From positions 124,001-188,000 of the forward strand of contig SADC01001015.1 of NCBI GenBank assembly GCA_004194705.1: 64,000 bases of DNA. Reading direction: 5' to 3'. Shown piece by piece: positions 44,640 through 48,646 of this stretch; the first letter of the stretch is position 1, and the number at the start of each line of letters is the position of its first letter. The notes under the pieces were generated by a model, which was not told the origin of the DNA, did no database searches, and saw only the letters and a list, made by a program, of their open reading frames with translations. Position numbers and translations under genes: made by a program. The stretch comes from Ditylenchus dipsaci. Taxonomy: Eukaryota > Nematoda > Chromadorea > Rhabditida > Anguinidae.

Positions 44640-45235
44640 CAGTGTTGTTCCAGCGCCGGGATCGGCGCCGGCGCCAGCGCCGGCGCCGACCCTTTCCGAG
44701 AAAAGGCCCCAGCGCCAGCGCCGAGCGCCTCCCTTAAAAAATTTTGGCTCCGGCGCCAGCGCCGGCGCCGACCTCTTTTGAAAAAATGCCCCAGCGCCGG
44801 CGCCAGCGCCGGCGTTCATGGCAGCGCCGACGCCGGCGCCGGCTTGATAATTTTGCTTTTGCTGTAAATTTCATTAAAAATTCCTATTTTTCAACAGTAT
44901 GTTTTGTACGGTGCCATGGCATTTCGTCCAAAATTCAGTTCGTCCAAAGTCAATTCGTCCAAAGACAATTCGTCCAAAATTCAGTTCGTCCAAAAGTCAA
45001 TTCGTCCAAAATGCATTTCGTCCAAAATGCAATTCGTCCAAAATGCAATTCGTCCAAAATGCAGTTCGTCCAAATGCAGTTCGTCCAAAATTCAATTCGT
45101 CCAAATTTTAATTTCAAGTCAAAATTTTCGCGAGAGAACCATTTCAACGATGACAGCATAACTTCAACCGCTCAGAAACCTGTGCCAGAGTGGCCCATAG
45201 CCAAAATAAATCTAGTTTTGGGAGTTTACTAAATG

Positions 45236-45465
45236 TGGACAGTCGTTTTTTGCGAAAAAAGATATAGCGAACCAGAATCGCAATGAGATCGGGTGAATCG
45301 CTCAGAATACTACCGCATATCCGAAGCTATCCTAAACCACTGCTTAGGACGGTTTGCAGTAGTTTGCAATGTTCGGTGGTCAGATTCTGAGCGATTCATC
45401 CCGTCACAGTGCGATTTTGATTCGCTCGATCGTTTTTTCGCAAAAAGTTGTCAACCCTTCATTGA
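45236..45465. repeat. Inverted repeat between left arm and RPS3A
   Basis: GTCGTTTTTTGCGAAAAAAG and CGAACCAGAATCGCA on the left pair with TGCGATTTTGATTCGC and CGTTTTTTCGCAAAAAGTTG on the right. It is a separate small foldback lying between the left arm of the Pack-type unit and the 3' end of RPS3A. Confidence 0.55.
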
Positions 45466-45906
45466 ACCCCCGAAAACCGTTTTCATTGGTTTTTCATCTC
45501 TGTGACATGGGATTTTGGACTCGAGGTAAATAGATCTCAGGTGAATTGTCTCTTAATAGGTTACAGATTTGCAGTGAGGACTGTGGTCTCAACCAACTAA
45601 ACTAAAACCGCTAGAACTAAAATCGCTTCAAATCACTCCAATGAAACTATAATCACCCCGAACCAGCCAAAATCATTTAAATGACCCCAACTACACCCTA
45701 AACAAGTCAGTTAGAATAGTTAAACTTTTTTGTGGTGATTTGAACGGGATCAAGATATTTGGGGTGGTTTGGGCTCGTTTTGGCTAATACAAAATATCTT
45801 TCTCCTTCCTTTGTCGCAAATTATTTGTCGGGAAATCATGCATCACACCCAGCTATTTTGACAGAATGTCATTTACAGTTAAAAGCACAAAAATCAAACA
45901 ACGTAA

Positions 45907-45912
45907 TTTATT
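45907..45912 (-). promoter_or_regulatory. Poly(A) signal AATAAA of RPS3A
   Basis: AATAAA on the minus strand, 42 nt after the stop codon. Its presence shows the transposon-like unit carries the gene through its 3' end. Confidence 0.7.
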
Positions 45913-45953
45913 GCCAAATAACGAGAAACAGACAATTTAATATCATCAAGATA

Positions 45954-47015
45954 CTAGACACTAGCCTGCACAGGCGGCTCATAGGCATCTGGACGATAGG
46001 TTATCTCGCTATTTCCGGAAGTGATGGCACCAGCAGTCGCGCCATGCATTTCAAACAGCTTGCCCATTTCGAACTTCGGCTTCTTGATGATCTTAACCTT
46101 GCGAATATAGACGTCTTGGAGAGGATAGATTCGGAAACACGACTCCTCAATGTCCTTGCCAATGGAATCCGGAATCAGCTTGTTGCACACTTCACGAAGG
46201 TACTCGAAGCAACCTAAATGTCAAATCAGTCTTATGACGACGAAAGAATTAAAAAAGACCTCTTTCTATATGATTTCGACCATTTTGGCACGAATAGCGC
46301 GAACATGCGACGACTTAGCATAGCTGAAACAAGGGTAATACCTTCGGAAATAACTTGAGGAATACTAACCTGGTCTTCTTCACTTGATTGTCAGATCTCT
46401 TGGTGAATCCAATGCAGAATAGGCGCAGAAGATATCCATCAGTGGTCTTCACATCAACATGAGCTTCAATCAAGGTCTAAAGCTTGGTATACAACAAAAC
46501 GGACAAAGCGTAGGCAACAAACACACATGCCACTTTTTGACGATGGAGCAGATCTTGTCACAAGTAAAGCTCATCCCGTGGAAGTTGGTCAAGCACATCT
46601 TTCCTTGCACATCCTCGCAGATCAGGCGGAACTTTCTGAAATCGGACTCGGAATTGTTGAGATCGGCAAGTGAGACCCTAAAGATAAAGAACATCCTAGG
46701 TGATCAGATGATAACTTGAGGCTTACTCACAGATGCGCCCCTCAGGAAGTCACTGGCGATCTCTGAAACAATCAATTAAAAGGTGAAATGGAAATGCAAT
46801 TTACTTGTTCCCTGAGACTTGTTTACGAATGTCTTCCCAATGGTGCGGTTCGTGAACATAGCCGGAGCATTGACATCGTACCACTCCCTAAAACAGCAAG
46901 AAACATAATTAAGAAAACCTTCCTGTCGCATAAAAGCTTACTTTCGGGTGAAGGGATCAACCACCTTCTTCTTATTTCCCTTCTTGCTCATCTTCTTATT
47001 TTTGCCGATAGCCAT
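45954..47015 (-). pseudogene. RPS3A: Ribosomal protein S3A (eS1), seven exons, two one-base deletions
   Basis: Core 40S ribosomal protein eS1. Exons: 46942-47015, 46805-46887, 46727-46762, 46527-46677, 46370-46476, 46260-46323, 45954-46213, about 264 aa, the normal length. It starts MAIGKNKKMSKKGNKKKVVD and ends YEPPVQASV; family blocks include [69 protein letters not shown] and [14 protein letters not shown]. Introns are 54-132 bp with GT..AG. Exon 3 is one base short within GGGG (RGRICE expected) and exon 6 one base short near ATCATATAG (in-frame stop). Both could be decay of a captured copy or base-calling errors. The gene lies wholly between the arms of the unit 44910-47460. TTTTTAG before the ATG could be a cis or spliced-leader acceptor. 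Confidence 0.95.
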
Positions 47016-47575
47016 GCTTGCTTTCAACTGCTAAAAACCAATTTATTTACGAATAGAAACTATGAATCGAAAATATGAAAGCATAAATGAAAACAATAAT
47101 CGGATTAATGTCTCAATCAAATCTTGATCAAAAGGGTGTTGAGGTCGTAGTCCAAAAGACGTGGTACTTAGGTGACTTAAGGAGAAACGGTCAGGTGATA
47201 TTATTTGGCAGTGCCTACATATCGGTACGCAGGTGGAAGTGGATCAATAGAGATACTGCCGGACTTCATCATGTTGAAATTTGGACGGATTGCATTTTGG
47301 ACGAAATGCATTTTGGACGAATTGGCTTTTGGACGAACTGACTTTTGGACGAATTGAATTTTGGACGAATTGTCTTTGGACGAATTGAATTTTGGACGAA
47401 CTATACTTTGGACGAACTGACTTTGGACGAACTGAATTTTGGACGAAATGCCATGGCACCGTTTTGTACAGTGAAAGTGATAATAATTATTTGCTATCTA
47501 TATCGATTAGCAGATTAGCAGCATACCGTTTATATTTCCTCTATTAGTTCCTCATGATAAGTGAATTTTGAAATA

Positions 47576-48646
47576 CAGGGTGTTTTAAAAAATCCGCAGA
47601 ATTTGAGATGGCTATAACCTTTTTCTAGAACGAATTTCTGTTTTCACTAATCGTTTTCTCTTGACGGGCAATTTCGTTAAATGTATAATGTCAAAAGTAT
47701 AATTTTCGGCTCTAGCTGAATTCATCCTCAACCAATTCATCCTCGGTGAATTCATCCTCCTTTTTGTCCTGGGTTGAATATGTTTGAAGACCTGATTTTT
47801 ATATATTAAGAGAGCACCCTCATTTTGTGGGGCACCCTCAGAGAGCACCCTTATTGATGTCGGGACCAAAAAAGGGCCTAAGAATTGACCACCCTAACCA
47901 AAATTCCTGGGTATATAACTCCTAGTCAGGTGGGTGTCCACCTGGATAGCCTAAAAATGTAGGCAAAAAAAGGTTTACACTTAGTGGGACTCGAACTAGT
48001 AACCTCGGTGACAGCAACCACTCCCCAATTTATACCAAGTGGTCGTAAACCAGGTGGTCGACGACTTGGATCAATTTTTTTTACTTTTTTAGAGTTCCAA
48101 AAAAAAATTGTACACTAATTCGAGCATGCTGAAGATGGTTGGACAGTGGTAAAATCACGTTTTATCAAAAAATTTCGATTTATCGCTAACGATTGATTTT
48201 GATAAATCAAGAATTACCAATAACTCAAAAATTTATTCATAAAATGTAATTTTACCTCTGTCAAACCATCTTCAGCATGCTCGAATTAGCGCAAAAAAAT
48301 TAATTTGGAACCCGAAAACGTAAAAAATTTTTTGATCCAAGTGGTCGACCACTTGGTTTGGTGCATGGATTCTCAGGGTGATGTAGAGGTTGCTAGTGAA
48401 AAAAATGTTTCGGGACGCGAAAACGTAAAAAAAATTCATCCAAGTGGACGACCACTTGGTTCGGTTTGGTAAATGTTCGTAAATTGAGTGGTTGGTATTA
48501 TTTGGTATTATCAAACAATTTTCAGCATAAAATTTTGGTATGCTAAAATCGGCTTTTTGATGTGAAGGAAACATAAATTAGAAATTCGGTCTCGAAAAAA
48601 AGTTATAACCATTTAAAATCCTGTGGATTTTTCTCGAAACACCCTG
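47576..48646. mobile_element. Mariner-like MITE with CAGGGTGTTTTAAAAAATCC end
   Basis: Left CAGGGTGTTTTAAAAAATCC, then GAGATGGCTATAACCTTTTT; right AAAAAGTTATAACCATTTxAAATCC... AACACCCTG. TA at 47574-47575 and 48647-48648. Inside are three GAATTCATCCTC-type units (47703-47758) and a palindrome-family copy (about 48020-48360) with AAGTGGTCGACCACTTGG borders. No transposase. Confidence 0.75.

Follow-up and report, generated by a model that had tools for sequence, protein, structure and literature searches.

How does a complete ribosomal protein gene come to lie between the ends of a transposon, and did such a gene still work while it was being carried? The question is raised by an element in the window (the whole stretch of 64 000 nucleotides analysed here) that the original prediction described as a single transposon-like unit of the Pack-MULE type, holding all of RPS3A, the gene for eS1, as a captured copy under decay. 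The parts of this element are as follows.

44901–44909: left target-site duplication GTTTTGTAC, an exact copy of which lies at 47461–47469
44910–44929, plus strand: terminal inverted repeat of the left end, GGTGCCATGGCATTTCGTCC, found at 343 places in the genome with at most two mismatches (reversed control, 0)
44919–45105, plus strand: left tandem-repeat arm, about 12 copies of a 16 bp unit of the TTCGTCCAAA type
45106–45569, plus strand: left internal transposon sequence, largely in common with cargo-less elements
45577–47142, minus strand: captured cargo, the whole RPS3A (eS1) gene, its limits set by homology to an armless copy on contig C271 (L037)
46942–47015, minus strand: RPS3A exon 1
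46805–46887, minus strand: RPS3A exon 2
46727–46762, minus strand: RPS3A exon 3, with a one-base deletion that is absent at that column in the other 14 full copies
46527–46677, minus strand: RPS3A exon 4, which the deleted subfamily lacks
46370–46476, minus strand: RPS3A exon 5
46260–46323, minus strand: RPS3A exon 6, with a premature TAG at codon 170 in common with L041–L043
45955–46213, minus strand: RPS3A exon 7, with a one-base deletion in common with L041–L043; the stop codon is at 45954–45952
45907–45912, minus strand: poly(A) signal AATAAA, read in the sequence
47136–47273, plus strand: right internal transposon sequence, common to cargo-less elements
47274–47450, minus strand: right tandem-repeat arm, 16 bp unit of the TTCGTCCAAA type
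47441–47460, minus strand: terminal inverted repeat of the right end, the exact reverse complement of GGTGCCATGGCATTTCGTCC
47461–47469: right target-site duplication GTTTTGTAC, an exact copy of 44901–44909

The predicted outer features are all present: the 20 bp ends are exactly inverted, both arms are built of a 16 bp unit and GTTTTGTAC flanks the element on both sides without a mismatch. A 118-nucleotide stretch of the left arm is 92% complementary to the right arm, and the element thus has the long inverted ends built of short tandem repeats that characterize foldback-type transposons. The left internal part contains an inverted repeat of its own (45246–45446, with 63-nucleotide arms that are 78% complementary), and a self-match of this type is seen in many other copies of the element. 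At the position that corresponds to 45569/45571, four copies (L046, L048, L051 and L053) have an extra 174–212 bp that is absent in the window copy, L041–L045 and L047. Immediately to the left of the element, positions 44640–44845 of the window hold a GGCGCC-rich tandem stretch with a period of 41 bp. Rfam gave no match at gathering scores in the window or in L046, L082, L057 and L058.

The unit is real, but it is not a single one. In the 227 Mb assembly (1359 contigs), searches with the left arm, the cargo and the right arm gave 533, 90 and 475 candidates, the best 40 of which were scored in each case, and each of the three is present in dozens of copies; these counts are lower bounds. Three of the 40 scored cargo places (on C271, C1333 and C39) have no arm, and the other 37 have at least one alongside, such that RPS3A adjoins a matching arm in at least 37 places in the genome. 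Among 156 listed places of the 20 bp end (of 343), 42 pairs lie within 7 kb of each other, 25 on contigs with an RPS3A element and 17 on others. The expectation that such arm pairs would also occur without RPS3A was borne out by nine complete elements that were read (L057–L065; 0.55–4.97 kb). A host gene therefore lies between terminal inverted repeats that are also found without it, as in a Pack-TIR element.

Most copies also carry marks of their own insertion. We read 27 RPS3A elements (the window copy, L041–L056 and L069–L078) and left L045, with its damaged left end, out of the count of duplications. Exact target-site duplications flank 19 of the remaining 26, 13 of them 9 bp and six of them 8 bp long, and all 19 differ from one another; three more have one mismatch and four have none (L052, L054, L055 and L073). 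When left ends were paired with the right ends of other copies, none of 650 combinations matched exactly. Target duplications that differ from copy to copy indicate movement as a unit. Among the nine cargo-less pairs, an exact 9 bp duplication is present in four, a duplication with a mismatch in two and none in three.

The sites before insertion can be seen as well. With the flanks of the window copy joined through one GTTTTGTAC, an uninterrupted match was obtained in all 40 scored places (of 348 candidates) of a dispersed host repeat, at 90–97% identity across 203 or more of the 210 bases. Three empty sites were aligned and hold the target once, as GTTTTTTAC or one base shorter, and a further empty site, 80% alike, lies on C271. 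The original prediction had named flanks that belong to a longer shared repeat as evidence against insertion; they do lie in such a repeat, yet because this repeat has the target once it supports insertion. The repeat around the element spans at least 44850 to 47618 and has at least 40 copies.

These observations bear on whether the copies could instead be a segmental duplication or an ordinary cluster of ribosomal pseudogenes with an inverted repeat nearby by chance. Ribosomal protein gene debris is plentiful here, in the form of many partial matches to PF00900 (17 matches) and scattered pieces of RPS3A exon 7 (on C906 and other contigs). Against this, homology of the window element to the 15 full-ended RPS3A copies stops at, or a few bases from, the inverted repeat ends, most of the scored copies have their own target duplication and the empty sites are uninterrupted. 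For the RPS3A elements we reject this explanation on the empty sites and target duplications, and regard it as highly improbable.

The limits of the cargo follow from two partial relatives of the 2736 bp element L046. The cargo-less element L058 covers its positions 1–738 and 2412–2736, the armless copy on C271 covers 839–2418, and about 100 bp on the left are matched by neither. These boundaries place the cargo at about 45577–47142 of the window; it takes in roughly 127 bp upstream of the ATG and some 375 bp downstream of the stop codon. As predicted, a whole RPS3A gene lies between the arms on the minus strand, with seven exons, six introns (all GT/AG) and the poly(A) signal. Ribosomal protein genes are a frequent source of processed pseudogenes, and a transposon could in principle have overrun such retrocopies at a later time; the general tendency of these genes to seed copies speaks for this origin. 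The full copies however retain all six introns, with GT/AG at every one in 12 of the 15 (the exceptions are L050, L051 and L053, each with many small deletions). We therefore reject a processed origin, the likelihood of which we consider negligible.

The cargo of the window copy is dead. Both predicted one-base deletions are present, in exons 3 and 7, and the frame is also broken by the TAG at codon 170, which had been missed in the first reading; the copy therefore has no uninterrupted full-length frame. This TAG and the exon 7 deletion are common to the window copy and L041–L043, which make up the four of the 15 full-cargo copies that have a premature stop when frameshifts are disregarded; the other 11 have none. 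The exons of these four are 0–0.6% apart, and the elements have four different target duplications. Since all four moved and all four share the stop, a working cargo is unnecessary for movement: this sublineage has a dead cargo and is still mobile. For it, the predicted decay is correct.

The remainder of the family does not follow this picture. An uninterrupted frame of 258 amino acids is present in two of the 15 full-cargo copies, L044 (on C1268) and L046 (on C1228), and these two alone combine it with the conserved domain. They have no frameshift, all of their splice sites are GT/AG, they match PF01015 with E values of 3.1 × 10^-78 and 1.2 × 10^-79, respectively, and the L046 protein aligns end to end with mammalian eS1. 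In total the 15 full copies have 51 frameshifts; one-base deletions account for 41, and L050, L051 and L053 together hold 31. Part of these frameshifts are probably assembly errors.

Next, we asked how the cargo has changed. For 14 full copies (L052, the 3′ end of which is cut, was left out of this pairwise table and kept in the tree), the mean pairwise difference is 0.030 in the exons and 0.053 in the introns; the flanks differ by 0.029 on the 5′ side and 0.058 on the 3′ side. Slow change is also seen in the 5′ flank of the full copies, to which 18 of 171 noncoding changes belong (p = 0.004). For the inner sequence of the transposon itself, the same copies give differences of 0.043 and 0.042, more than in the exons. 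The value of pS is 0.067 and that of pN is 0.018, giving a dN/dS of 0.27, and the three codon positions differ by 0.021, 0.021 and 0.049.

Changes were also placed on a tree of 29 rows, which correspond to 15 full copies, 11 deleted copies that have the exon 4 deletion and three armless copies; L054, which is damaged and has its 3′ end cut, was left out. Nonsynonymous and synonymous changes (N:S) were counted by parsimony with recombination ignored, and the neutral share of nonsynonymous changes was built from noncoding changes. Over all branches of the 15 full-cargo copies the ratio is 60:61 against a neutral share of 74% (0.741; p = 7 × 10^-9), with 18:28 on the inner branches (p = 6 × 10^-7) and 42:33 on the end branches (p = 5 × 10^-4). 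The 11 copies with the common exon 4 deletion give 80:25, in line with the neutral expectation, both on the inner branches (29:7, p = 0.83) and on the end branches (51:18, p = 0.46; neutral share 0.751). The full and deleted copies differ with p = 6 × 10^-5 (Fisher). On a tree built from noncoding columns only, the ratios are 80:64 (p = 1 × 10^-6) for the full and 70:23 (p = 0.55) for the deleted copies; the contrast between them is weaker there (Fisher p = 0.0024), with 37:31 on the inner full branches compared with 18:28 before.

The full-cargo copies were under purifying selection during much of their spread, and the deleted copies are unconstrained. Because the copies without exon 4 form a natural control inside the family, the intact cargo is indicated as having been selected while it was moved. 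The predicted decay of a captured copy thus applies to the sublineage of the window and not to the family as a whole. The constraint is clear in clade B (L046–L053 and L055; 41:45, p = 2 × 10^-7) and unclear in clade A (the window copy and L041–L045; 17:8, p = 0.31). Within clade A, the lineage with the common stop has 11:2 and the rest 6:6, a split that was chosen after the stop had been seen. This pattern of changes suggests that part of the carried copies were still functional during the spread.

The low nonsynonymous rate might also be found in a neutral passenger, if the copies were converted by, or repeatedly captured from, a working RPS3A elsewhere. Some exchange between copies is possible: two of the deleted copies, L071 and L078, are placed apart from the main deleted clade, which must reflect recombination among copies, a deletion that arose more than once or an error in the tree. 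A partial orthodox RPS3A does exist near the end of C340 (62900–63080, positions 2400–2580 of L040), where exons 1 and 2 are fused, without the first intron of the cargo, and have a one-base deletion. Its DNA is, however, only 74–80% alike to the element copies that it matches and, given this divergence and the missing intron, it cannot be the source of the conversion. The armless relatives that come closest, on C271, C1333 and C39, have the intron type of the cargo but are broken and 78–89% alike. In addition, the deleted copies are equally open to conversion in the exons that they keep, yet they are unconstrained. We consider a neutral passenger improbable.

A complete RPS3A outside the elements was found neither in the profile search, for which all 88 candidates were scored, nor, among the matches listed, in the protein search (138 of 138 scored; the last weak matches fall outside the list), and the remaining part of the C340 gene was not found in the assembly. 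Gaps in the assembly can explain this absence. PF00900 (S4e), which served as a control, gave its 17 matches with all 27 candidates scored. Gene fragments of this class are therefore plentiful in the genome, and a single control is insufficient to establish that the assembly is complete. Last-exon fragments of RPS3A lie outside the transposon on C906, C723, C539, C901 (at 133971), C1055, C299 and C1254. On C906 (394300–395420; L083 and L084) there are two, 0.8 kb apart and oppositely oriented, and the 612 bases read there do not match the transposon arms; a host exon was considered for these pieces and rejected, as they are exon 7 fragments that align over 138 and 118 bp at 85 and 89%.

An intact RPS3A had been expected elsewhere in the genome. 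Intact frames do exist, in L044 and L046, but both lie inside sister elements, and the pieces outside are broken or partial. As the only complete frames found are inside the transposon, one may speculate that the transposon has become the working source of the essential eS1 in this nematode, the orthodox locus being lost or broken and new insertions replacing functional copies as they die. From the sequence as assembled, we hold this to be possible but doubtful. The closest named RPS3A proteins are those of Ditylenchus, Globodera, Acrobeloides and Meloidogyne at 78–80% identity, and the best match overall is 82%. The genome is marked as that of a nematode by the canonical SL1 22-mer, which occurs 267 times with at most two mismatches (reversed control, 0).

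As to the carrier, the assignment to MULEs in the original prediction can be kept in a qualified form: a host gene does lie in a unit with terminal inverted repeats, and the length of the target duplication and the arm structure make the Mutator superfamily the most likely one. Target duplications of about 8–11 bp characterize this superfamily, and those found here are 8–9 bp. MULE transposase domains are common in the genome: of 504 candidates 150 were scored, and 115 of these are matches. The 115 listed matches were compared with 156 end places (of 343); paired ends enclose none of them, and the closest approach to an end, on C1177, is 7.2 kb. By eye, the 4.97 kb pair on C95 (L057) and the 1.5 kb inner part of the 3.0 kb pair on C1160 (L082) contain short open reading frames only, with no listed MULE match on either contig. 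From its reading frames, L082 (C1160, 633100–634600) appears to have repeated and inverted stretches, with no evident gene.

A carrier from another superfamily with foldback-like ends, for example a P-type element such as Galileo in Drosophila, would agree with this lack of a transposase between the arms (in the 156 end places compared and, by eye, on C95 and C1160). Foldback ends did arise in several superfamilies, according to PMC3169594. On the other hand, 8–9 bp duplications together with long tandem-repeat arms match Tm1 and FB4, both of which are assigned to Mutator in the relevant parts of PMC3169594 and PMC8277862, and MULE domains abound in this genome. A different superfamily is in our view rather unlikely.

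Taken together, the family is very probably explained by a foldback-type element that captured a whole RPS3A gene and spread it to at least 37 places, with the cargo under purifying selection during much of the spread and with movement served in trans. A non-autonomous DNA transposon, most probably a member of the Mutator superfamily, would have taken up the gene at the DNA level, because the introns are kept. This would probably have happened once, because the right-hand junction is identical in the aligned copies. Transposition with 8–9 bp target duplications would then have dispersed the gene while selection acted on it, which implies that some element-borne copies may have been expressed and useful. 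The sublineages with a broken cargo, namely the exon 4 deletion group and the group of the window copy, kept moving, so movement needs no working cargo and would be served in trans, presumably by a Mutator-type transposase.

Plant Pack-MULEs carry mostly gene fragments; unlike these, the element described here carries a whole gene, shows signs of function and resides in an animal. It resembles them in having gene sequence between Mutator-type ends that has been amplified (PMC8277862, in its passages on Pack-MULEs). According to the same paper, no Pack-MULEs were reported when 100 animal reference genomes were surveyed, and the main animal precedent is one family from a fly population. Among the matches listed in the open-licence literature, no RPS3A or other ribosomal protein gene is described as whole transposon cargo in an animal, and the MULE passages of PMC10015627 contain nothing on captured genes in nematodes.

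Two systems are the closest known, Ssk-FB4 in kind and Tm1 in carrier and host. Ssk-FB4 of Drosophila melanogaster, as described in the sections of PMC8277862 that deal with it, is a foldback-type Pack-MULE with long repetitive ends and 9–10 bp target duplications. It took up nearly all of a host gene, introns and upstream region included, has moved on several occasions and encodes a protein; its four copies at three loci are polymorphic, lack about 200 bp of the 3′ UTR and have been read as evidence of positive selection. The RPS3A element shares with it the foldback-type carrier, the repetitive ends, the whole or nearly whole gene with upstream region and introns and the repeated moves, and differs in its presence at at least 37 places, in its ribosomal protein gene that includes the 3′ end and in its purifying selection. 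Tm1, a Mutator/Foldback family of root-knot nematodes (Meloidogyne), has tandem repeats of about 14 bp, mostly 9 bp target duplications, non-autonomous and MITE-like members and paralogous sites with and without the element; one member has FLYWCH and MULE domains, and its cargo-like members, with a histone hairpin, have no obvious coding potential (PMC3169594, in the parts on Tm1). The two are alike in their nematode host, composite tandem-repeat ends, mostly 9 bp duplications, non-autonomous members and empty sites, and differ in the sequences of the ends and repeats.

With animal Pack-MULEs nearly unknown, a whole ribosomal protein gene has here been carried, with its flanks, to dozens of sites. 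A direct test is now possible of whether a core ribosomal protein can come to be supplied by a transposon, and of how moving copies of such a gene are tolerated in dosage. Three features are new relative to Ssk-FB4 and Tm1: a ribosomal protein gene that is complete, a large number of copies, and purifying selection for which the family supplies its own control.
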